Positions 4,925 through 28,549 of a DNA stretch of 64,000 bases are shown one piece after another (the stretch's first letter is position 1; each line of letters begins with the position of its first letter). The stretch covers positions 5,125,001 through 5,189,000 of the forward strand of contig NZ_JAPEMC010000001.1 in the NCBI RefSeq assembly GCF_026343115.1. Direction: 5' to 3'. The notes under the pieces are model-generated. The model did not search any database and had not been told where the DNA came from. It worked only from the letters and a program-made list of their open reading frames with translations. The translations under genes were made by a program, and so were the position numbers. This DNA comes from Streptomyces sp. NBC_00102. Its GTDB lineage: Bacteria > Actinomycetota > Actinomycetes > Streptomycetales > Streptomycetaceae.

Positions 4925-7393
<2,469 letters not shown>

Positions 7394-7455
7394 GGGGACG
7401 GCCTCCTCGGGGGGTCGGTCGGGGCGGGGCGGGCGGAACGGTGAAAACCTCGCGG

Positions 7456-7510
7456 GCCGGTGGGCCTGGTGCCCGGCCGGACGGCCGGGCCGGGCACCAG
7501 GCCCACCGGC
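7456..7510 (-). terminator. Long perfect hairpin between mak and glgB
   Basis: A perfect 23-bp inverted repeat (arms 7456-7478 and 7488-7510, 9-base loop) built on GGTGGGCCTGGTGCCCGGCC. It sits in the 157-bp gap after the mak stop codon and before the glgB start. There is no U-tract, which is usual for Streptomyces terminators. It could terminate or attenuate read-through into glgB, or stabilise the upstream mRNA. Confidence 0.8.
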
Positions 7511-7550
7511 CCGTCGGTCCGCGACGGCGGGGGAGCCGCGCGGACCAGGA

Positions 7551-8993
7551 TCAGGTGGACGCGGCGAGCCGCTGGATCGCGGCCATCGGGACGGGCAGCC
7601 AGTCGGGGCGGTGCCGTGCCTCGTACAGCACTTCGTACACGGCCTTGTCCGTCTCGTGGGCGCGCAGCAGCTCGGGTTCGCTGCGCGGGTCGGTGCCCGA
7701 GACCTCGGCGTACCCCTCGCAGTACGCGGAGCGGCAGCGTTCCGCCCACGCGTCGCTCCAGGGCCGGTGGGAGCGGGCCGCGTAGTCGAAGGAGCGGAGC
7801 ATTCCGGCGACGTCGCGCACCGGTGGCTGCGGGCTGCGGCGTTCGGCGAGCGGCTTGGCGGGTTCGCCCTCGAAGTCGATCAGTGACCAGAACCCGTCGG
7901 CGCCGCGGAGCGTCTGTCCGAGGTGCAGATCGCCGTGGACCCGGTGGGTGGCCCAGGAGCGGCCGCGGTGCCCCAGCTCCGCCACCGCTTCGAAGGCGGC
8001 GTGCAGCGCGGGGACGTACGGCAGGAGAGCGGGGACGGCCTGCGCGGTCGACTCCAGCCGCTGGGTCATCCCGGCGACCAGCTGTTCGATGCCCGCCAGG
8101 CGCAGGTCCGGGCCCGGCAGGGCGGAGGCGAGCGCGGAGTGCACCTCGGCGGTGGCCCGGCCGAGCGCCCGGGACTCCGGGACGAAGTCGCGTCCCGCCG
8201 CGAGCGCGCCGAGCGCCAGTTGCCAGCCGTCCTCGGCGCCGCGCAGGAAGGGTTGCAGCACCCCGAGGGTGAGCGGTTCGGGGGTGGTGGCCTCGAACCA
8301 GGCGACGGGTGCGGGCACCCGTCCGCAGCCCTCGCCGACGAGGGCGAGCGGCAGTTCCAGATCGGGGTTGGTCCCCGGGAAGACCCTCCGCAGGATCTTC
8401 AGGATGTACGCGTCGCCGAAAACGAGCGAGGAGTTGGACTGTTCGGTGTCGAGCAGCCGTGGTGCGAGCCCGGCCGGAATCGTTTCCGCGCGTTCGAAGC
8501 GGAGCGCGCCGAGCGGTCCGGGGCGGCGGAACCGCTCCAGCAGCAGACCCGCCAGCCGTGGATCGTGCAGGCCCTCGTATACGGTGCGGCCCGCCAGCGG
8601 CCCGTCCGTCACCCGCCCGATGAGCGCGGGCGCCAGCACCGGCGGCAGTTCCGTCCGTACCCCGAGCAGGAGTTGGTAGCAGTCACCGGTGGCGCGGGCG
8701 GGCAGTCCGGGCTGGTGGACCCGGACCAGGAGGTGGAGCAGCCCGGGGCCGGTCGCGGTGGAGTCGACCGGCAGTATCTCCGTCGCGGAGACCAGGGTGA
8801 ACCCGGCGACCGGGTGGCCCTTGCCGGCGAACCACCGTTGCCTGGGCAGCCAGTCGTGGAGCAGGGGGGCGAGGGAGGGCAGGAGTGCGGTCCCCGCCGC
8901 GGCGCCCCCCGGCCGCGGATGGGGTTGTGGGTGGGGCGCCTGTTTCGTGGTGCTTTTCGCCAGGGCGACGTGAGTGGATGCAGCCTCCGACAT
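7551..8993 (-). CDS. mak: Maltokinase (Mak/Pep2)
   Basis: A 480-residue ATP-dependent maltose 1-kinase, which makes the maltose-1-phosphate used by GlgE. The N-terminal cap domain is recognisable ([18 protein letters not shown], typical of actinobacterial maltokinases). The C-terminal aminoglycoside-phosphotransferase-like lobe carries the catalytic loop HGDLHLGQ (Asp near 355) and the metal-binding LIDFEGEP. The start [10 protein letters not shown] is chosen because an AAAGGA site precedes it by 9 bases; the open frame continues upstream with no recognisable domain. It lies 273 bp downstream of treS in the same direction. TreS and Mak are separate proteins here, not fused as in some actinobacteria. 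Confidence 0.95.
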
Positions 8994-19382: not shown

Positions 19383-20963
19383 GTGGTGACAGGAAGAGAT
19401 CAGATCCCGGTCGAACCGGATGAGACCCCCGGGCCGGAACGTCCGGCAACCCCAGCCCCGGCGGGGGGCGTTCCCGTGCAGGGGCGTTCCGACCCCGACC
19501 TGATTTCCCCGGTGCCCTCCCCGGCGACGGACCTGCCCGGCCTCTTCGAGGCGGCGGACGACGACGAGCCGCTCCGCGTCCAGCTCTCCCGGGCGGAGCG
19601 CCACGGACGCGCGGTCGCGGTGATCGGGCTGGGGTACGTGGGTCTGCCGACCGCTCTGGCGCTCCGCGCGGCGGGGGTCCGGGTGATCGGGATCGACGTC
19701 AGCGCCGACCGGCTGCGCGACATCCGTGCGGGCGCCGTGGACCTGGGGCTCCGGGATCGGGAACGGCTGACGGACGCGTTGCACGACCCCGCCTTCCTGC
19801 TGACCGACGACCCCCGGGCGTCCTCCTGGGCGGACACCGTGATGATCTGTGTGCCCACTCCCGTGGACCGCCATCAGGTGCCGGACCTCGGGATGCTCGC
19901 GAAGGCCTGCGCTTCGGCGGTCGCGCACGCGGTTCCCGGGCAGCTGCTTCTGCTGACCTCCACCAGTTACGTGGGCACCACCCGCGATCTGCTCCTCGCG
20001 CCGCTCGCGGCCAAGGGGATGAAGGTGGAGGCCGATGTCTTCGTGGCCTTCGCCCCGGAGCGGATCGATCCGGGGAACGCCACCCACGGTCAGGACCTCA
20101 CCCCGCGCGTCGTGGGGGGTGAGGGGCGGCGCAGTACCGCTTCGGCCGTCTCGGTGCTCTCCCGCATCTCCCCCTCGGTCCACCCGGTCGGAAGTCCGGA
20201 AGCCGCCGAGATGACCAAACTCTGGGAAAACACCTTCCGGGCCGTCAATATCGCGCTGGCGAACGAACTGGCCGACAATTGCGCCGTATTCGGACTGGAT
20301 CCCCGATCGGTGATCGACGCGGCCGCGACCAAGCCGTACGGTTTCATGCCCTTCTATCCGGGCCCCGGTGTCGGCGGCCACTGCATTCCGTGCGATCCGC
20401 ACTATCTGCTGTGGCAGTTGAAGGCCGAACGCATTCCCTCGCCGGTCGTCGACGCCGCGATGCGGGCCATCGCGGAGCGCCCCGGGCGGATGGCCGGACT
20501 CATCACGGCGAAGCTCGCCGCACGGGGAATTCCGGTCGCCGGAGCGCGTGTCCTGGTGGTCGGGATCGCGTACAAGAAGGGTGTGGCGGACATCCGCGAG
20601 AGCCCCGCGCTGGAGATCATGGGGCTGCTGGCGGACTGGGGGGCGGCGGTCTCCTTCACGGACCCGATGGTGCCCCGCGCCGATCTGCGCGGCCGGACGC
20701 TCACCGCCGTCGCCGACCCGTGGGACCAGCGATGGGACCTGGTCGTGCTGCACACTGTGCACTCCGGCACGGACCTGAGCCGGCTCGGCCCCGAACACAC
20801 GGTGCTCGACATCTCCCAGGACCGCAGGGGCCCAGGCGGAGCCGGGACCCCCCGGGCCGCCGGAGCGGCGGGCGGAGCCGGTACGTCCGGAGGTGCGGAG
20901 GCGCCCGGCGGCGACGGGGCGCACCGGTCGGCGGGTTCGCCCGAGGTCGGGGTATCGGCGTGA
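19383..20963 (+). CDS. Nucleotide-sugar 6-dehydrogenase (UDP-Glc/UDP-HexNAc dehydrogenase family)
   Basis: A protein of about 526 residues. It oxidises a UDP-sugar at C6 to the uronic acid using NAD. Rossmann motif GLGYVGLPTALAL is near residue 82, the middle domain has EMTKLWENTFRAVNIALANE, and the catalytic Cys is in GPGVGGHCIPCDP (about 334). The GPGxGGHCIPxDP form is, in my knowledge, more typical of UDP-N-acetylhexosamine dehydrogenases (WecC, TviB, WbpA) than of UDP-glucose dehydrogenase (GxGFGGxCFPKD). An N-terminal extension of about 70 Pro/Asp-rich residues and a Gly/Ala-rich tail are unusual. The start is uncertain among TTG 19377, GTG 19383 and GTG 19386. It overlaps the next gene (GTGA). 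Confidence 0.9.
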   Translation: MVTGRDQIPVEPDETPGPERPATPAPAGGVPVQGRSDPDLISPVPSPATDLPGLFEAADDDEPLRVQLSRAERHGRAVAVIGLGYVGLPTALALRAAGVRVIGIDVSADRLRDIRAGAVDLGLRDRERLTDALHDPAFLLTDDPRASSWADTVMICVPTPVDRHQVPDLGMLAKACASAVAHAVPGQLLLLTSTSYVGTTRDLLLAPLAAKGMKVEADVFVAFAPERIDPGNATHGQDLTPRVVGGEGRRSTASAVSVLSRISPSVHPVGSPEAAEMTKLWENTFRAVNIALANELADNCAVFGLDPRSVIDAAATKPYGFMPFYPGPGVGGHCIPCDPHYLLWQLKAERIPSPVVDAAMRAIAERPGRMAGLITAKLAARGIPVAGARVLVVGIAYKKGVADIRESPALEIMGLLADWGAAVSFTDPMVPRADLRGRTLTAVADPWDQRWDLVVLHTVHSGTDLSRLGPEHTVLDISQDRRGPGGAGTPRAAGAAGGAGTSGGAEAPGGDGAHRSAGSPEVGVSA

Positions 20964-22492
20964 CCCTGACCGATCGCGCCCCTGCCGGCCGCACCACCGT
21001 CCCCGCCGCTGACCGTGCCACTGTCCCCGCCGCCGCCGACCGTGCCCGGGGCTCGGCCGCCGACCGTGCCCGGGGCTCCACGCCCCCACCCGGCCCGTCG
21101 GCCGGCCGGTGGCTCGCCGAGGCGCTCCCCGGGGTCCGGCGCGGGCTGCGCAGGCTGCTGGTGCTGCTCTGCCTGATGCCCCTGATCGTCGTCCTGGCCC
21201 ACGAGGCGCTGCGGCTGCCGCGCCTGAACACGGCTTCGGCGTACGGTCTGGTGGTGCTCGCGGGCACGATCGCCCTGCTGTACATCGCGTACAGCCGCTA
21301 CGAGGACCCCTCGACGACCTCCGGCCCGGCGGTGCCCGACGCCGGGTTCCCGCCGCTCGCCGCCCGGCCGCGCGTCGACTTCCTGCTGGCGGTGAAGGAC
21401 GAGGCCGACGCCATCGAGGAGTGCGTCCGCTCCATGGCCGCCTCGGACTGCCCGCGGGTGCGGATCGTCGTGGTGGACGACTTCTCCACCGACGGCACCC
21501 GCGAGATCCTGGTCCGCCTGCGTGACGAACTCGGCATCACCGTACTGCTCTTGGACGAGAACGTGGGGAAGAAGCACGCCCTGGTCGCCGCGTGCGAGCA
21601 CGTGGACGCCGAGGTCGTCGCGTTCACCGACTCCGACTGCGTCCTCGCGCCCGACGCGCTCCGCCGCTGCGTGGACGCGTTGGCCCGCCATCCGCGCCTC
21701 GGTGCCGTGAGCGGCCACTGCCGGGCCCTGAACGCCGACGCGACGATGCTGACGCGTATTCAGGACATTTGGTACGAAGGCCAGTTCAGGATCGCCAAGG
21801 CGGCCGAGTCCTCCTTCGGCTCGGTGTCCTGCGTCTCCGGCCCGCTCGCGGTCTTCCGTCGGGAGGCGATCTACAACTACCTCCCCGCCTGGGCCGGGGA
21901 CCGCTTCCTGGGCGCCCCCTTCCGCTTCGCCACCGACCGCCAGCTGACCGGATACGTCCTCGGACAGACGTGGATCGGCAAATCCCTCAAGGACCGCTAC
22001 CGGGACTCCCCGTTCGTCTCGGGCGAGGACCACCCCGAACGTCTCTGGCGGGTCGGCTACGTGCGGTCGGCCCACGTCCTGACCAACGTCCCCGCCCGAC
22101 TCGCCCCGCTGATGCGCCAACAGGTCCGCTGGAAGAAGAGCTTCATCCGCAACCTCTTCTTCACCGGCTCCTTCATGTGGCGCCGGGGCCCCGGACCCGC
22201 CGTCCTCTTCTACGGCCACGTGCTCTGGGTACTCGCCGCACCGCTGATGGCCGTACGCCACCTGGTCTGGGCCCCGGCTCACGGCGCGTACCTCCTCACC
22301 CTCCTCTACGTCTGCGGAGTGCTGCTCAAGGGCTGCGTCTGGGGACTCGCCTACCGGACCGACCACCCCGGCGACACCCGATGGAGATACCGCCCCCTCA
22401 TGAGCCTCTTCTCCTCGGTGGTCCTGGCCTGGCTGCTTCCGTACTCGCTGCTCACCGTGCGGCGCGGGATCTGGTCGAGGAGCACGACATGA
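20960..22492 (+). CDS. Hyaluronan-synthase-like processive GT2 glycosyltransferase
   Basis: A 510-residue membrane glycosyltransferase. After a disordered Ala/Arg/Pro N-terminus come two membrane segments (LLVLLCLMPLIVVLAHEALR, then YGLVVLAGTIALLYIAYS), a GT2 domain with VVDDFSTDGT, the DSDC nucleotide-binding motif (about 224), VSGPLAVFRREA and QQVRWKKSF (about 386), and about four C-terminal membrane segments. The SGPLxVxRRE, FLGxP and QQxRWxKSF motifs match Streptococcus HasA as I recall it. It should polymerise and extrude a polysaccharide. About 25 extra residues (GKSLKDRYRDSPFVSGEDHP region) precede the acceptor region. GTGA overlap upstream, ATGA downstream. Confidence 0.88.
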   Translation: MTLTDRAPAGRTTVPAADRATVPAAADRARGSAADRARGSTPPPGPSAGRWLAEALPGVRRGLRRLLVLLCLMPLIVVLAHEALRLPRLNTASAYGLVVLAGTIALLYIAYSRYEDPSTTSGPAVPDAGFPPLAARPRVDFLLAVKDEADAIEECVRSMAASDCPRVRIVVVDDFSTDGTREILVRLRDELGITVLLLDENVGKKHALVAACEHVDAEVVAFTDSDCVLAPDALRRCVDALARHPRLGAVSGHCRALNADATMLTRIQDIWYEGQFRIAKAAESSFGSVSCVSGPLAVFRREAIYNYLPAWAGDRFLGAPFRFATDRQLTGYVLGQTWIGKSLKDRYRDSPFVSGEDHPERLWRVGYVRSAHVLTNVPARLAPLMRQQVRWKKSFIRNLFFTGSFMWRRGPGPAVLFYGHVLWVLAAPLMAVRHLVWAPAHGAYLLTLLYVCGVLLKGCVWGLAYRTDHPGDTRWRYRPLMSLFSSVVLAWLLPYSLLTVRRGIWSRSTT

Positions 22493-22701
22493 GGGCGGGC
22501 GACAGACGGTCGAGCGGCTGGCGGCTGGGCGCGGAGACCCCGGGCGGCGCGGGCGCCGACCGTACGGCAACAGGGGCGGACGCACGCGGGGAACACGGGG
22601 GAGCGGTACGGCGTGCCGCCCGGCTGCTGGCCGGATTCCTGACCGCCTGCGCGGTCGTCGCCCTCTACCTGATGGTCCTGTCCCGGGGAGACCTGAGGTG
22701 A
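22489..22701 (+). CDS. Small single-span membrane protein
   Basis: A 70-residue protein with a hydrophilic Gly/Ala/Arg N-terminus and one membrane segment near its C-terminus (AARLLAGFLTACAVVALYLM), ending SRGDLR. It begins within an ATGA overlap with the glycosyltransferase gene and ends in a GTGA overlap with the deacetylase gene, so it is embedded in the coupled operon. By position it resembles IcaD/PgaD, the small partner of PNAG synthases, but there is no sequence motif to confirm this. Its third-position GC bias supports coding. Confidence 0.72.
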   Translation: MRAGDRRSSGWRLGAETPGGAGADRTATGADARGEHGGAVRRAARLLAGFLTACAVVALYLMVLSRGDLR

Positions 22702-24308
22702 GCCGCCCGGGACGCCCCGGCCCGGGGCCGGTGGGCGCGGCCTCGGTACGGGCGGTCCTGGGGCTGCTGGCCCTGGTGCTGGTCGCCCTCCCCTTCTACG
22801 CGGTGTGGCGCTACGAGACCCACCGCAGGGCCGTCACTCCGCAGGCCGCACCGCCCGTGGGGGCGCGCCCCGTCGCCGGGCCGCCGCACGGCGCCGGACC
22901 GGGCCCGGCGGCGGACGCGGGGGCGGGGGCGACGCCGCCCGTCGTGCTGGCGTACCACGACATCGCGCCCCACGGCCGGAGCCGGTACACGGTCACCCCC
23001 GAAGCCTTCGACGCGCAGCTCGCCGCCCTGGCCCGGGCCGGCTACCGGAGCCTGTCCACCGAGGAGTTCGTCCGCTACCTGGACGGGGGAGACCCGCCCG
23101 CCCGCCGGTCCGTCTACCTCACCTTCGACGACGGCACCCACGGGCTCTGGGTGCACGCCGACCGCATCCTCGCCAAGTACCGGATGCGCGCGGCGGCGTT
23201 CCTGATCACCGGCTCGGTGGGACGCCACCGCCCCTATTACCTCTCCTGGCAGGAGATCGGCCGCATGACCGGCACCGGCCGGTGGGACTTCGAGGACCAC
23301 ACCCACGCCCTGCACCGGAGGGCCGCCGTGGACGCCGCCGGCACCCGGCAGTCGGTGCTCTCCCACCGCCTCTGGCTGCCGGGGGACCGGCGGCCGGAAC
23401 GCGAGGACGAGTACCGGGCGAGGGTCGCCGGGGACCTGGACACCTCGCTCGCGGAGTTCGCCCGGCACGGCCTGCCCCGGCCCCGGCTCTTCGCGTACCC
23501 GTTCTCCGAGGCGTCCGAGCCCGTCGACTCCCGCACCTCGAAGGGAATCCTCCGGCACGAACTGGCGGGCCGGTTCGCCGCCGCCCTGACGAACACCACG
23601 GACCGGCCGCTCCCCGCCGGACGGCGGGCCGGTGCGGCAGGCGAGGTGCGGCGCCTGGAGATCACCCGGGCGACCGACCTCCGGGCATTCCGCGCGGGGC
23701 TGGAACTCTGGACCGCGACGGCCCCGGGCGACCGCCCCGAACCACTGGGCGACACCGTCGGCTGGGAGCACATCGGTGCGAAGGCCCCGCGCGGGCCCGG
23801 GGTTTTCACCGGCCGGGGGCCCTATCCGGGGAGGACCGGGTTCGCGGCGGCCTCCTACCGACCTCTCGCCTCGGCGGACTGGACCGACTACACGCTGGAC
23901 GTGACGGTCGACCGGCTGCGCGAGGCGACGAACAACGTCGGCATCGTCGTACGCGACGGCAGCCTGGCGCCGGTCACGGTCGCCCTCAGCCACAGCTACG
24001 TCAGCCTCTTCGCCGGCACCGGGGACCGGCGGGCCGAAGTCGCGCGGCGCACGCTCCACGACAACACCGTGCACCGGGTGCGCGTCACCGTGCGGGGCGA
24101 CCGTACCGAGGTCGTGGTCGACGGGCGCTTCCGGATCGACTGGACCGAACCCCGCGCCACCGGCGGGAACGGCAGGGGCGGCCTCGCCCTCAACATCCGC
24201 AACGCCGACGCCCTGGGGGAGTGGCCCCGCTTCGTCTCGCTCCGGGTCGCCTCCCTGCCCGCATCCGCCGCGGAGGCGGGCAGGGAGGCGGAGGCGGAGG
24301 GGCGATGA
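22698..24308 (+). CDS. Membrane-anchored polysaccharide deacetylase (CE4) with C-terminal lectin-like domain
   Basis: A 536-residue protein. An N-terminal anchor (VRAVLGLLALVLVALPFYAV) is followed by a Pro/Gly linker and a NodB-type deacetylase domain from about residue 75: VVLAYHDIAP, TFDDGTHG (Asp pair about 142) and DHTHALHRR (about 201). The H-T-x-x-L-H form of motif 2 is like the poly-N-acetylglucosamine deacetylases IcaB/PgaB. Residues 350-530 (WTDYTLDVTV to GGLALNIRNAD) look like a concanavalin/LamG-type sugar-binding fold. It probably removes N-acetyl groups from the polymer made by the upstream synthase, outside the membrane. Overlaps both neighbours by 4 bp. Confidence 0.9.
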   Translation: MSRPGRPGPGPVGAASVRAVLGLLALVLVALPFYAVWRYETHRRAVTPQAAPPVGARPVAGPPHGAGPGPAADAGAGATPPVVLAYHDIAPHGRSRYTVTPEAFDAQLAALARAGYRSLSTEEFVRYLDGGDPPARRSVYLTFDDGTHGLWVHADRILAKYRMRAAAFLITGSVGRHRPYYLSWQEIGRMTGTGRWDFEDHTHALHRRAAVDAAGTRQSVLSHRLWLPGDRRPEREDEYRARVAGDLDTSLAEFARHGLPRPRLFAYPFSEASEPVDSRTSKGILRHELAGRFAAALTNTTDRPLPAGRRAGAAGEVRRLEITRATDLRAFRAGLELWTATAPGDRPEPLGDTVGWEHIGAKAPRGPGVFTGRGPYPGRTGFAAASYRPLASADWTDYTLDVTVDRLREATNNVGIVVRDGSLAPVTVALSHSYVSLFAGTGDRRAEVARRTLHDNTVHRVRVTVRGDRTEVVVDGRFRIDWTEPRATGGNGRGGLALNIRNADALGEWPRFVSLRVASLPASAAEAGREAEAEGR

Positions 24309-25243
24309 TCCGGCGACGGGAAGGGCGGTCGTCCGCGCCCGGATACACCCGCCGTGCGGTGGTCGGGCTCGGGCTCGCCGCCACCGCGGGCGTCCTGCCG
24401 CTCACCGACGCGCCCCCGCCCGGCGCCGGGACGGGCGGGGCGCGGGTCGCGGACGACCTGGCGCGGGTCGCGGACGGCCGCAACGACGAGGCGGCTTTCG
24501 CAGCACCGGTACGAGCCGCCGCCGCTCCCGTCTGCGACGCCTCGGACGCCGGTACCTTCACCGCGGTCTTCCCCCGCTCCGGCCTGATCACCAACGAGTA
24601 CGCCCACCGCCACCCCGCTGCCGCCGACGCCCGCACCGACCCCGACTGGTCCGTCACCAGCGGATCGCTCTTCGCCGACCGGGGAGCGGCCTGGAGCGGC
24701 GTCCCGGACGGGTTCTCCCCCGACCCGCTCTCCCGGCTGCACACCGGCTCCTCGGTGCTGCGGGCGGTGACCGTACGACGCGACTTCGCGGACACCGCCG
24801 TCCGCACCCAGGTCCTGCTCCGGCCTCCCGGCACCACCGCGCGCACCCCCGCGACGGACTGGGACGGCGGACACCTCTGGCTCCGCTACCGCAGCCCTCA
24901 GGAGCTGTACGCGCTGAGCTTCCGGCGGCGCGACGGCCTGGTGGTCATCAAACGCAAGCTGCTGCTGCCCGGGTCCGTCGAAGGAGCCGAGGGCGTGTAC
25001 ACGACTCTCGCGCAAGCCCGTTGCGCGTTTCCGTACGACACCTGGCACCACGTCGAGGCGCGGGCGCTCACCACGGCGCCGTCCACGGTCCGGCTGCTGC
25101 TCCTCGTCGACGGGCGGACCGTGGCGGAGGCGGTGGACACCGGACCCGGGGTGCTCACCGGCCCCGGCGGGGTGGGGATGCGCGGCGACAACAGCGAGTT
25201 GCGGTTCACCGCGTTCACCGCCGTGCCGTGCCGGGCTCCGTGA
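24305..25243 (+). CDS. TAT-exported protein with concanavalin-like fold
   Basis: A 312-residue protein with a twin-arginine signal (YTRRAVVGLGLAATAGVLPL, residues 14-33). The rest resembles a LamG/DUF1080-type beta-sandwich: LWLRYRSPQELYALSFRRRD, YDTWHHVEARAL and GGVGMRGDNSELRFTAF are characteristic strand patterns of carbohydrate-binding jelly rolls. There is no obvious catalytic triad. It ends the five-gene coupled operon (ATGA overlap with the deacetylase gene), so it probably binds or modifies the secreted polymer. The similar domain at the end of the preceding protein suggests both recognise the same glycan. Confidence 0.82.
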   Translation: MIRRREGRSSAPGYTRRAVVGLGLAATAGVLPLTDAPPPGAGTGGARVADDLARVADGRNDEAAFAAPVRAAAAPVCDASDAGTFTAVFPRSGLITNEYAHRHPAAADARTDPDWSVTSGSLFADRGAAWSGVPDGFSPDPLSRLHTGSSVLRAVTVRRDFADTAVRTQVLLRPPGTTARTPATDWDGGHLWLRYRSPQELYALSFRRRDGLVVIKRKLLLPGSVEGAEGVYTTLAQARCAFPYDTWHHVEARALTTAPSTVRLLLLVDGRTVAEAVDTGPGVLTGPGGVGMRGDNSELRFTAFTAVPCRAP

Positions 25244-26016: not shown

Positions 26017-26496
26017 TCACCCGTCGCAGCCGCACCCTGCGGCCGGGGTCGCGGCGTCGCCCGCTTCCGGCCGTTGCGCGCAGCAGGTGTCCCCGCCGGG
26101 CACGAGTGCGGGGCTCTTGCCGAGCCGGTCGGCGTCGGCCTTGACGGTGTAGACCTCCCAGGGCTCCTTGCCGGGGCCGTGGACCCACACCTTGTCCTGG
26201 AGGGCGTAGCAGCAGGAGGTGTCGTTCTCCTCGAAGGTCGCGAGCCCGGCTTCCTTGAGGCGGGTGGTGGCGGCGGTGACCTCGTCGGTGCTGCCGACTT
26301 CGACACCGAGGTGGTCGAGGCGGGTCTCCTGGCCGGGTTCGCCCTCGATGAGGACCAGCTTGAGCGGCGGGGTGGTGAGGGCGAAGTTCGCGTACCCCGG
26401 GCGCCGTTTGGCGGGCTCGGTACCGAACAGCTTGGAGTAGAAGGTGACGGACGCTTCGAGGTCCGCGACGTTGAGCGCGAGCTGGACACGGGACAT
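26017..26496 (-). CDS. ArsI/CadI-family heavy-metal resistance metalloenzyme (VOC fold)
   Basis: A 159-residue vicinal-oxygen-chelate protein. MSRVQLALNVADLEASVTFY opens the first beta-alpha-beta unit, LDHLGVEV carries a metal-ligand His and WEVYTVKAD the Glu. The vicinal cysteine pair in NDTSCCYALQ (about 95-96) is the trait that in ArsI binds trivalent organoarsenicals for C-As bond cleavage. The C-terminus is Cys-rich (DTCCAQR, then AAGCGCDG), suggesting extra metal binding. ATG start with AGGGAG 6 bases before it. It is divergent from arsR. Whether it is a C-As lyase or a CadI-like protein cannot be decided from sequence. Confidence 0.9.
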   Translation of the reverse strand: MSRVQLALNVADLEASVTFYSKLFGTEPAKRRPGYANFALTTPPLKLVLIEGEPGQETRLDHLGVEVGSTDEVTAATTRLKEAGLATFEENDTSCCYALQDKVWVHGPGKEPWEVYTVKADADRLGKSPALVPGGDTCCAQRPEAGDAATPAAGCGCDG

Positions 26497-26518
26497 GGTG
26501 TCTCCCTGATCAGGTTGT

Positions 26519-26569
26519 ATCGATGCCTGTCGATTCAAGGTTGCATCCTGGATCGAGGAACGTCAATAT
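26519..26569. promoter_or_regulatory. Candidate ArsR operator/promoter between arsI and arsR
   Basis: The 79-bp divergent region has a dyad ATCGA-N6-TCGAT at 26519-26534 and a further half-site ATCGA at 26552. For arsR, TTGCAT at 26541-26546 and CAATAT at 26564-26569 are 17 bp apart and form a plausible -35/-10. That would start transcription at or beside the arsR ATG (26576), implying a leaderless message. Confidence 0.45.
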
Positions 26570-26575
26570 AGAAGC

Positions 26576-26989
26576 ATGTCGAAACAAGAACTCGTGGTGA
26601 TCGGCCAGGACGGTGCCGGGCGTGCCGGGGAATGCTGCCCCGGTCTGCTGTCCACCCCGCTGGAGGAGGAGCGCGCGCAGGCGCTGGCGAAGGTGTTCAA
26701 GGCGCTGGGCGACCCGGTGCGGCTGCGCCTGCTGTCGATGATCGCCTCGCGGGCGGGCGGGGAGGTCTGCGTCTGCGACCTGACCCCGGCCTTCGACCTG
26801 TCGCAGCCGACGATCTCCCACCACCTGAAGCTGCTGAAGCAGGCCGGGCTGATCGACTCGGAGCGGCGCGGGACGTGGGTGTACTACCGGCTGCTGCCCG
26901 AGATGACCGACCAACTGGCCCAGGTCCTCTCCCGCCCCGCCGATCCTTCCGGGGCACCCCTGCCCGCCTCCGCGGGGACCTTTTCGTGA
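26576..26989 (+). CDS. arsR: ArsR-family metalloregulator
   Basis: A 137-residue winged-helix repressor. KVFKALGDPVRLRLLSMI, the metal-motif helix EVCVCDLTPAF (Cys 65 and 67) and the recognition helix LSQPTISHHLKLLKQAGLI are classic ArsR features; RRGTWVYYRLLPE is the wing. An extra N-terminal pair in ECCPGLL (Cys 20-21) is seen in actinobacterial ArsR proteins that bind As(III) with N-terminal cysteines. It should repress both arsI and its own operon until arsenite binds. No good ribosome-binding site precedes the ATG, consistent with a leaderless mRNA. Its stop overlaps the proposed acr3 start (GTGA). Confidence 0.95.
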   Translation: MSKQELVVIGQDGAGRAGECCPGLLSTPLEEERAQALAKVFKALGDPVRLRLLSMIASRAGGEVCVCDLTPAFDLSQPTISHHLKLLKQAGLIDSERRGTWVYYRLLPEMTDQLAQVLSRPADPSGAPLPASAGTFS

Positions 26990-28107
26990 GCGGGGGCGGA
27001 ATGGCGCACGCGGAGCCGGCTGCCCGGCGGCTGTCGTTCCTGGACCGGTTCCTCGCCGTGTGGATCCTCGCCGCGATGGCCGCGGGTCTCGGCCTGGGCC
27101 GTCTCGTACCGGGGCTGGGCGACGCGCTAGCGAAGGTGACGGTCACCGGGGTCTCGCTGCCGATCGCGCTCGGGCTGCTCGTGATGATGTACCCGGTCCT
27201 CGCGAAGGTCCGTTACGACCGCGTCTCCACCGTCACCCGCGACCGGCGCCTGCTCGTCCCGTCCCTGGTGCTGAACTGGGTGGTCGGCCCGGCGCTGATG
27301 TTCGCACTCGCCTGGATCTTCCTGCCCGACCTGCCGGAGTACCGCACCGGGCTGATCATCGTCGGCCTGGCCCGCTGCATCGCCATGGTGGTCATCTGGA
27401 ACGACCTGGCCTGCGGCGACCGTGAGGCCGCCGCCGTCCTGGTGGCACTCAACTCGGTGTTCCAGGTCCTCGCGTTCTCGGCGCTTGGCTGGTTCTACCT
27501 CAGCGTGCTGCCCGGATGGCTCGGGCTGGAGCAGACCGCCCTGGACGTGTCGGTGTGGGAGATCACCCGATCCGTACTGATCTTCCTCGGCATCCCGCTG
27601 CTGGCCGGGTTCCTCACCCGGCGGCTGGGCGAGAAAGCCAAGGGGCGCACCTGGTACGAGACGAAGCTGGTCCCCCGGATCGGACCGTTCGCCCTGTACG
27701 GGCTCCTGTTCACCGTCGTCGTGCTCTTCGCCCTCCAGGGCGATGCCATCACCTCCAAGCCCCTGGACGTCGTCCGCATCGCGGTGCCGCTGCTGGTGTA
27801 CTTCGCGGTGATGTGGGCCGGGTCCCTGGCGGCCGGTCGCGCGCTCGGACTCGACTACCCGAAGGCGGCCACGCTCGCGTTCACCGCTGCGGGCAACAAC
27901 TTCGAGCTCGCCATCGCGGTCGCCGTCGCCACCTTCGGCGCCACCTCCGGCCAGGCCCTCGCCGGAGTCGTCGGCCCCCTCATCGAGGTCCCCGTCCTCA
28001 TCGGACTCGTCCACGTCGCCCTCGCCGTACGCCACCGCTTCCCCGGGCCCGCCGACACGGCAACCGGCCCGGCGGCCACCGCTCCGAAAGGCTCCGCCCG
28101 TGTCTGA
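26986..28107 (+). CDS. acr3: ACR3-family arsenite efflux permease
   Basis: A 373-residue membrane protein with about ten hydrophobic spans, beginning RLSFLDRFLAVWILAAMAAG. Family features include GLARCIAMVVIWNDLACGD, with the conserved Cys of span 4, and GNNFELAIAVAVATFG, with the conserved Glu of span 9. ACR3 exports arsenite using the proton-motive force. The GTG start in the 4-bp overlap with arsR is chosen; ATG at 27001 (MAHAEPAARR), preceded by GGGGGCGGA, is an alternative. It overlaps arsC by 8 bp. Confidence 0.93.
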   Translation: MSGGGMAHAEPAARRLSFLDRFLAVWILAAMAAGLGLGRLVPGLGDALAKVTVTGVSLPIALGLLVMMYPVLAKVRYDRVSTVTRDRRLLVPSLVLNWVVGPALMFALAWIFLPDLPEYRTGLIIVGLARCIAMVVIWNDLACGDREAAAVLVALNSVFQVLAFSALGWFYLSVLPGWLGLEQTALDVSVWEITRSVLIFLGIPLLAGFLTRRLGEKAKGRTWYETKLVPRIGPFALYGLLFTVVVLFALQGDAITSKPLDVVRIAVPLLVYFAVMWAGSLAAGRALGLDYPKAATLAFTAAGNNFELAIAVAVATFGATSGQALAGVVGPLIEVPVLIGLVHVALAVRHRFPGPADTATGPAATAPKGSARV

Positions 28108-28549
28108 AGCCATGCCCGACGCCGTGCCCGAAGCCCCGTCCGGGGCCAAGCCGTCCGTACTGTTCGTGTGCGTCCACAACGCGGGCCGCTCCCAGATGGC
28201 CGCAGCCTGGCTCACCCACCTGTCCCAAGGCCGGATCGAGGTCCGGTCCGCCGGTTCCGCACCCGCCGACGCCGTGAACCCGGCCGCCGTACGAGCGATG
28301 GCGGAGGTCGGCATCGACCTGTCCGCCGAGACCCCGAAAGTACTGACCGCCGACGCCGTACGGGCATCGGACGTGGTCATCACCATGGGCTGCGGCGACA
28401 CCTGCCCCGTCTTCCCCGGCCGGACCTACCTCGACTGGCAGCTCGACGACCCCGCAGGCCGGGGCGTCGACGCGGTCCGCCCGATCCGCGACGAGATCGA
28501 GCGCCGGGTACGGGACCTCCTCGCCGAGCTCCTGCCGGACGGGTTCTGA
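28100..28549 (+). CDS. arsC: Arsenate reductase ArsC (low-molecular-weight phosphatase family)
   Basis: A 149-residue protein that reduces arsenate to arsenite for export by ACR3. The phosphate-binding loop VCVHNAGRSQMA (C-x5-R, residues about 24-30) starts the LMW-PTPase fold. VITMGCGDTCPVFPG holds the second and third redox cysteines, as in thioredoxin- or mycothiol-dependent ArsC, and YLDWQLDDPAG the catalytic Asp. GTG start overlapping acr3 by 8 bp; ATG at 28112 would remove four residues. It is the last gene of the arsR-acr3-arsC operon and ends 18 bp from the convergent ABC exporter. Confidence 0.95.
   Translation: MSEAMPDAVPEAPSGAKPSVLFVCVHNAGRSQMAAAWLTHLSQGRIEVRSAGSAPADAVNPAAVRAMAEVGIDLSAETPKVLTADAVRASDVVITMGCGDTCPVFPGRTYLDWQLDDPAGRGVDAVRPIRDEIERRVRDLLAELLPDGF

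Follow-up and report, generated by a model that had tools for sequence, protein, structure and literature searches.

The 64,000-nucleotide stretch of the Streptomyces sp. NBC_00102 genome analyzed here (the window, G000:C1:5125001-5189000), part of an 8.6-Mb genome that is 99.99% complete, contains a five-gene operon on the plus strand at 19383-25243, for which reading-frame analysis gave the order UGD-GT2-small protein-PDA-TAT (dehydrogenase, family 2 glycosyltransferase, microprotein, deacetylase and exported protein; Table 1). The operon is proposed, with about an even chance that the full scheme is right, to encode a synthase-dependent extracellular polysaccharide system whose product would be a partly de-N-acetylated amino-uronate polymer. 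In this scheme, UDP-N-acetylglucosamine (UDP-GlcNAc) would supply both UGD and GT2. UGD would oxidize C6 of a UDP-N-acetylhexosamine (UDP-HexNAc), most likely UDP-GlcNAc, to yield the uronate; GT2 would polymerize UDP-GlcNAc, probably together with this uronate, and extrude the chain across the membrane. The one-helix microprotein may work as a subunit alongside GT2 or PDA. PDA, anchored in the membrane, would strip part of the N-acetyl groups on the outside and so leave a putatively zwitterionic chain with carboxylates and free amines, and the PDA tail and the Tat-exported lectin may hold or organize the polymer at the surface.

The proposal draws on the conserved gene set with its overlaps, the residues of hyaluronan synthase (HAS)/NodC type in GT2, the signatures and tree position of UGD, and the invariant carbohydrate esterase family 4 (CE4) residues of PDA; L110, from a distant actinobacterium, also speaks for it with a comparable UGD-GT2-PDA order. 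A bolder version, held tentatively and judged somewhat less than evenly probable, is that of an undescribed actinobacterial class, in which a GT2 lineage with the motif ATDR would build a chain of GlcNAc and its uronate (GlcNAcA) from a single precursor pool, the chain would be deacetylated to a zwitterionic amino-uronan, the one-helix microprotein of ~35 residues would be a dedicated synthase-deacetylase subunit, and a basic-faced Tat lectin would be a polymer receptor or lyase. New here are the arrangement of known enzyme kinds, the separate GT2 lineage and a microprotein named by no library searched. An earlier note on this DNA had proposed a partly de-N-acetylated, uronic acid-containing polymer made by a system distinct from MatAB; the side of the tree given to GT2, the deacetylase and the distinctness from MatAB stand, while the dehydrogenase type is corrected here and the kinship of the small protein to IcaD is unsupported.

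Table 1 Genes of the operon with their positions in the window
Gene	Position	Strand	Product
UGD	19383-20963	+	526 aa; nucleotide-sugar dehydrogenase, UDP-N-acetylhexosamine 6-dehydrogenase type; Pfam UDPG_MGDP_dh domains
GT2	20960-22492	+	510 aa; membrane glycosyltransferase, putative processive polymer synthase, HAS/NodC side, own clade (Pfam)
Small protein	22489-22701	+	70 aa; single-helix microprotein, N-terminally extended copy
PDA	22698-24308	+	536 aa; CE4 deacetylase, PgaB/IcaB-like, N-terminal membrane helix, C-terminal lectin-like (laminin-G-like) domain
TAT	24305-25243	+	312 aa; Tat-type exported ConA-like lectin/jelly-roll protein, putative polymer-binding

Gene order and distribution

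The reading frames bear out the five-gene run described earlier: all four gene junctions are 4-bp overlaps (GTGA, ATGA, GTGA and ATGA in order), and the four motifs given for it, SGPLAVFRREA, FLGAP, QQVRWKKSF and HTHALHR, were all found in the translated genes. The same gene order was sought in other genomes, and the cassette recurs. Among 30 loci including the window, 18 had UGD-GT2-PDA-TAT, 7 had UGD-GT2-PDA and 3 had UGD-TAT-GT2-PDA, the remaining two being partial (one UGD-GT2; one GT2-PDA-TAT at a contig end). UGD lies upstream of GT2 in 29/30 loci, the remaining locus being cut by the contig end. The operon grouping goes beyond chance, since these genes are found side by side again in other genomes. 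These 30-locus tables were compiled without L024/L079 (several frames), L085, the distant loci L105-L110 and the repeat copies L025-L031, L072, L073, L090 and L091.

The GT2 scan of the genome_contigs collection gave 16 loci, 15 of them at 65-75% identity, together with one Streptacidiphilus copy (L024/L079) whose matches are spread over several frames. Presence within the genus is patchy, with GT2 matched at E below 1e-200 in 7 of 121 genomes, the own genome included. Within the family, the TAT profile matched 16 of 297 genomes, spread over 4 of 17 genera; operon genes adjoin TAT in 15 of these 16, of which one copy is spread over several frames and another is truncated at a contig end. In the sixteenth, G221 (L085), the TAT-like match is partial and no operon gene turned up next to it, which limits the proposed reading. 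At phylum level, GT2 matches at E up to 1e-15 were obtained in 12 of 149 genomes, among which GT2 was matched over most of its length only in the own genome and in G406 (48%). No plasmid record covered 80% of GT2 or 80% of the operon DNA.

Comparison of the flanks of 16 named loci, some of them on short contigs, gave one common set for L017, L019 and L020 and another for L010 and L018; otherwise single families recur. The cassette of S. parvulus, S. tendae and S. violaceorubidus is flanked by genes that, judged by their sequence beginnings, look glpX-like and xseA-like. The patchy presence, the several chromosomal sites and the stable core suggest that the cassette is inherited in one piece, having been either transferred or repeatedly lost.

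Placement of the glycosyltransferase

The best NCBIfam model for GT2 was NodC (TIGR04242) at 131.7 bits (cut-off 550; S. meliloti NodC control 748). PgaC_IcaA (TIGR03937) gave 99.7 bits (cut-off 422.3; E. coli PgaC control 648), and the MatB-type proteins of the own genome were likewise below the TIGR03937 cut-off, at 198.4 and 194.6 bits. With the GT2 family profile, the best PDB matches were hyaluronan synthases. SGPLAVFRREA, FLGAP and QQVRWKKSF are conserved across 16 aligned GT2s with single-residue variants only; the motifs are VDD, DSD (GSD in L011), SGPL, ATDRQLT and QQxRWKKS, with QQ[VI]RWKKS in 16/16 operon GT2s. QQxRWxxS is common to the operon GT2s, NodC and HAS, whereas QRxRW stands in its place in PgaC, BcsA and the MatB types. 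SGPL is present in the operon GT2s as in Xenopus HAS1; the chlorella-virus enzyme has GGPL and NodC has CGPC. The GDDR motif of HAS is ATDR in all 16 operon GT2s, with the Asp kept, and this Asp aligns with the residue that differs between PDB entries 7sp7 and 7sp6, which we take to be the catalytic base. Hydrophobic helices were predicted at residues 66-84 and 89-107, with about three at the C-terminal end.

The GT2 alignment included E. coli PgaC, E. coli BcsA, S. meliloti NodC and two MatB-type fusions of the own genome as references. In the 32-row maximum-likelihood tree, which carries long-branch warnings and in which the HAS rows are pieces of two PDB chains only, PgaC, BcsA and the MatB types split from the other 28 rows with support 100/99, and the 16 operon GT2s together with G406 form their own clade (100/100). 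The unconstrained tree groups HAS with NodC-like rows (98/95), with the operon clade outside. Approximately unbiased (AU) tests with BcsA left out rejected a clade of operon and NodC sequences (p-AU 0.007) and a pairing of the operon with PgaC alone (p-AU 0.001). A clade with HAS (p-AU 0.0995) and a position beside the whole PgaC/MatB group (p-AU 0.43) were not rejected; the tree being unrooted, the latter equals the first branch on the HAS/NodC side. By these sequence comparisons GT2 is a separate lineage on the HAS/NodC side, its exact attachment left undecided by the AU tests. The likeness to HasA claimed in the earlier note holds for the side of the tree (100/99 split, QQxRW); the free tree places the operon clade outside HAS, and a joint clade was not rejected. 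The phylogeny suggested there against HAS, IcaA and MatB put GT2 across the split from PgaC/MatB, and the cellulose synthase clade, named as a refuting placement, did not include GT2, BcsA lying across the same split.

A third Ica/Pga/Mat-type system for poly-N-acetylglucosamine (PNAG) would agree with the PgaB/IcaB-like PDA and with a gene mix that recalls icaADB, and the p-AU of 0.43 beside the PgaC/MatB group, obtained without cellulose synthase, calls for caution in rejecting it; the split from PgaC and MatB, QQxRW in place of QRxRW, the presence of UGD and the rejection of the pairing with PgaC alone nevertheless make it very unlikely. Very unlikely, too, is a GT2 that is not a polymerase and adds one or a few sugars to wall teichoic or teichuronic acid or to a lipid carrier, with PDA trimming later. 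HexNAc-uronates occur in teichuronic acids and actinobacterial wall polymers vary, but the QQxRW motif and multi-helix membrane architecture of GT2 are traits of processive enzymes, Pfam showed none of the five genes to encode an ABC exporter, a flippase or a lipid-carrier transferase, and the flanking genes differ between most loci.

Sugar specificity of the dehydrogenase

UGD scored 354 bits with TIGR03026 (NCBIfam). The HexNAc-type models (186.4, 176.8 and 148.5 bits) scored above the UDP-glucose models (117.3 and 90.0 bits), all below cut-off, the equivalog cut-offs for the HexNAc dehydrogenases being 750, 459 and 592, respectively. The best PDB match was an annotated UDP-ManNAcA dehydrogenase. 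The signature of UGD is PERIDPG / ENTFRAVNIALANE / GVGGHCIP, and among the 31 rows compared the operon UGDs carry [AS]PERIDPG, EN[TI][FY]RAVNIALANE and GVGGHCIP. WecC, encoded next to wecB, shares PER, ENxxR and GGHC with the operon UGDs, as does a TviB-model protein. PEFLREG without ENxxR is found in E. coli Ugd and in a Deinococcus enzyme encoded next to a UDP-glucuronate decarboxylase. Cys334, Lys279 and Asn283 are invariant in all 15 aligned UGDs. The 31-row UGD tree separated 26 rows from 5 with support 100/100, the five being the UDP-glucose-type dehydrogenases used, and put UGD on the WecC/TviB-type side, apart from UDP-glucose dehydrogenase; it carries a long-branch warning for E. coli Ugd, and the placement of the TviB-type and Azosp2 rows is unsure. 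The tree was built without L010 (split UGD frame) and the own-genome L134 and L136, whose sequences were read by eye. The own-genome dehydrogenases L134 and L135 carry the UDP-glucose signature. In L136 (G000:C1:4401500-4405000), a paralogue of HexNAc type, Gly replaces the catalytic Cys (GVGGHGVPLDP), and this dehydrogenase is possibly inactive or repurposed.

The UDP-GlcNAc 2-epimerase family PF02350 had no match in the own genome and matched 11 of 14 control genomes; that route is therefore unlikely to supply UDP-ManNAc, which leaves UDP-GlcNAc as the parsimonious substrate. The likeliest product of UGD would be UDP-GlcNAcA, made from UDP-GlcNAc. Since UGD groups with UDP-HexNAc dehydrogenases, the uronic acid is probably N-acetylhexosaminuronic and not glucuronic. 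The uronic acid-containing polymer of the earlier note thus keeps its UDP-sugar dehydrogenase, corrected to the HexNAc type by signature and tree, and its hyaluronan half is weakened.

The model implied there, a hyaluronan-like polymer of GlcNAc and glucuronic acid (GlcA) with UGD as a UDP-glucose dehydrogenase, appears decidedly unlikely. The best solved relatives of the GT2 profile are hyaluronan synthases, a clade of operon and HAS sequences was not rejected (p-AU 0.0995), and the two UDP-glucose-type dehydrogenases of the genome could supply UDP-GlcA; the UGD signature and tree argue against it, however, as does the free GT2 tree, which places HAS with NodC-like rows (98/95) and without the operon clade, and to our knowledge hyaluronan loci have no N-deacetylase.

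Deacetylase and putatively exported lectin-like protein

PDA belongs to CE4, with PF01522 matched at 59.2 bits against a cut-off of 23.1. Its NCBIfam matches to PgaB (87.6 bits, cut-off 321.9) and IcaB (60.7 bits, cut-off 248.35) are below the equivalog cut-offs; together with the PDB matches, PgaB/BpsB, they support the PgaB/IcaB-like deacetylase named earlier. TFDDG and H201-x4-H206 are invariant in the 15 aligned PDAs; of HTHALHR, only His201, Thr202 and His206 are. One hydrophobic helix lies near the N-terminus, and the tail matched Laminin_G_2 at E up to 0.05 in 5 of the 15 proteins.

The twin arginines are invariant in 11/11 TAT relatives, and TAT is putatively exported by the Tat route. 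Its predicted structure is a ConA-like beta-sandwich that matches solved members of the lectin/glucanase fold, the structural comparison covering the VIA-align rows shown, and supports the jelly-roll fold reported before. Foldseek with the same model also lists alginate, ulvan and glucuronan lyases, below CBM66, which narrows what can be said for a polymer-holding lectin. An origin of TAT as a duplicate of the PDA tail was considered and is unsupported (profile comparison probability about 1%).

Small membrane protein

Between GT2 and PDA, 30/30 loci keep a short frame with a hydrophobic helix and an RG motif at its end, a count that required RG near the frame end; with the hydrophobic-run test only, it was found in 21/21 loci (two being repeat copies, L021 left out). 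Its length is 34-39 aa in 27 of the 30, the others being L009 (46), the window (70) and L077 (112), and given this usual length the window form is read as an elongated variant of a conserved membrane protein that is normally small. Conservation centres on the C-terminal ~27 residues, whose end reads ...YxxVLSRG, and a single helix, residues 46-64, was predicted for the window copy. In 23/30 loci the chosen start and the GT2 stop share a 4-bp overlap, a spot that the script favoured, and the stop of the short frame falls within GTGA or ATGA in 28/30. Over the 27-codon core, 207 pairs, which are not independent, gave 1168 synonymous and 982 non-synonymous single-difference codons in frame, against 608:1546 and 361:1766 in the shifted frames; the substitution pattern is of the coding type. 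Kinship to IcaD, suggested in the earlier note, is not supported: one helix is predicted, and Pfam and NCBIfam gave no match at E up to 0.1, although so short a protein may escape them. It seems to be a tiny membrane protein not recognised before. In L077 (G398), the 112-aa frame resembles two tandem copies of the one-helix unit.

Flanking genes and distant relatives

The genes around the operon seem to have nothing to do with it: on the left are an M4 peptidase gene and a DUF3417/phosphorylase gene, and on the right (window 26017-28549) a glyoxalase-fold protein, an ArsR-family regulator, an SBF transporter and a low-molecular-weight phosphatase-fold protein, a group which we take, by the names of its members, to be an arsenic-type cluster. 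A promoter/terminator scan and an Rfam scan gave no matches.

L110 (G420), from a distant actinobacterium of another family, has the UGD-GT2-PDA order at 42/30/29% identity. The nearest GT2 outside the family is that of L105, in the 1.8-Mb actinobacterial genome G406; PDA adjoins it, large proteins with PKD repeats also lie beside it, and the stretch has 54% GC. In G409, L106 encodes at 5012-8113 a 1033-aa fusion of a GT2 of the HAS/NodC side with a PgaB-like deacetylase, in the order opposite to MatB. L115, on a Paenibacillus cellulositrophicus plasmid, has a related GT2 between two deacetylase genes, with glycoside hydrolase genes (GH18 and GH172) downstream. In L021, the PDA gene is gone after 8762 except for its apparent first codons, with UGD, GT2 and microprotein retained, a further limit on the proposed reading.

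Weighing of the proposed polymer

Several observations count against the amino-uronate scheme. Thr precedes the catalytic Asp (ATDR) in 17/17 members of the GT2 clade, where the 13 other rows have Asp or Glu, and substrate or mechanism may therefore be shifted. The single-sequence structure model of GT2 is of low confidence (predicted local distance difference test, pLDDT, 44). CalS8, presumably a UDP-glucose dehydrogenase, came third in the PDB scores with the UGD family profile, and this, with the long-branch warning, means that the UGD substrate is not certain by homology. In G406 the GT2 and PDA frames overlap with no room for a microprotein, which is therefore not universal beyond the cassette. 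Finally, the GT2 relatives L106 and L115 are accompanied by PDA, with no UGD close by. The ancestral GT2 may therefore use GlcNAc only, and these two loci suggest an older GlcNAc-polymer step to which the uronate was added later.

The same relatives, L115 with GH18 in its gene run, and NodC as the best NCBIfam model, albeit at 131.7 bits against 550, would fit a GT2 that makes a GlcNAc-only, chitin- or chitosan-like chain in the manner of NodC, de-N-acetylated by PDA, with the uronate capping the chain or serving another glycan. We regard this as unlikely, given UGD upstream of GT2 in 29/30 loci with a 4-bp overlap in the window, and the rejection of a single operon and NodC clade (p-AU 0.007). 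The amino-uronate polymer is the reading preferred here. If it is true, a further synthase system of patchy inheritance, whose polymer is predicted to carry both carboxyl and amine groups, would bring new surface chemistry to Streptomyces, the GT2 lineage on the HAS/NodC side would be a place to ask how sugar choice evolved, and the one-helix subunit, if it is one, would be small enough for annotation to miss easily.

Comparison with known systems

No description of the operon or the microprotein was found in the open-access PMC literature. The main text of a 2020 operon survey (PMC7112194) has 0 occurrences of hyaluron, Streptomyces and dehydrogenase, and it mentions a deacetylase-hydrolase PgaB in Kitasatospora setae. 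PMC13390465 presents a Wzx/Wzy and GtrA case, and PMC9911575 a Streptomyces exopolysaccharide with 21.98% uronic acid and 24.72% hexosamine. Identity with the S. coelicolor SCO0381-0383 cluster was considered and rejected, since that cluster has polyprenyl glycosyltransferase and putative exopolysaccharide transport genes and is therefore another system.

Class I hyaluronan synthase systems are alike in the GT2 motifs, in the best solved relatives and in having a dehydrogenase gene in the operon. The present operon differs in its own GT2 clade, in ATDR instead of GDDR and in a dehydrogenase of HexNAc type, the UDP-glucose dehydrogenase partner expected for class I HAS being apparently replaced (HexNAc signature, 100/100 split); it adds genes for a deacetylase, a lectin and a microprotein. 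Chitooligosaccharide synthesis by NodB/NodC shares the side of the tree, the top NCBIfam model and an adjoining CE4 deacetylase. It differs in that a NodC clade was rejected for GT2, that the operon deacetylase is PgaB/IcaB-like and membrane-anchored with a lectin-like tail, and that none of the five operon genes is NodA-like.

IcaADB and PgaBCD, which make PNAG, likewise combine a synthase with a PgaB/IcaB-like deacetylase and a small membrane protein. In the operon, however, GT2 is of the other branch, UGD and the lectin are present, and the small protein has one helix and usually 34-39 aa, against 137 aa (from coordinates) for PgaD of E. coli K-12. The same enzyme combination was seen in distant actinobacteria, in the G409 fusion (L106) and in G420 (L110), with GT2 identities of 30-33%; on the stretches examined neither had a TAT match, and that of G409 had no UGD match.

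Pelleting and adhesion of Streptomyces are controlled by surface glycans such as the PNAG produced by MatAB and the beta-1,4 glycan produced by CslA (PMC5972031). As an amino-sugar polymer system of the same genus, MatAB of S. coelicolor and S. lividans is comparable to the operon (PMC5972031, PMC4391728). MatB fuses the deacetylase to a PgaC-type GT2, whereas GT2 and PDA of the operon are separate genes and GT2 is of the other branch. Two MatB-type deacetylase-GT2 fusions, L111 (G000:C2) and L112 (G000:C1), lie elsewhere in the own genome, in keeping with the distinctness from MatAB claimed from the outset, and the genome may therefore carry two PNAG-type loci besides the operon.

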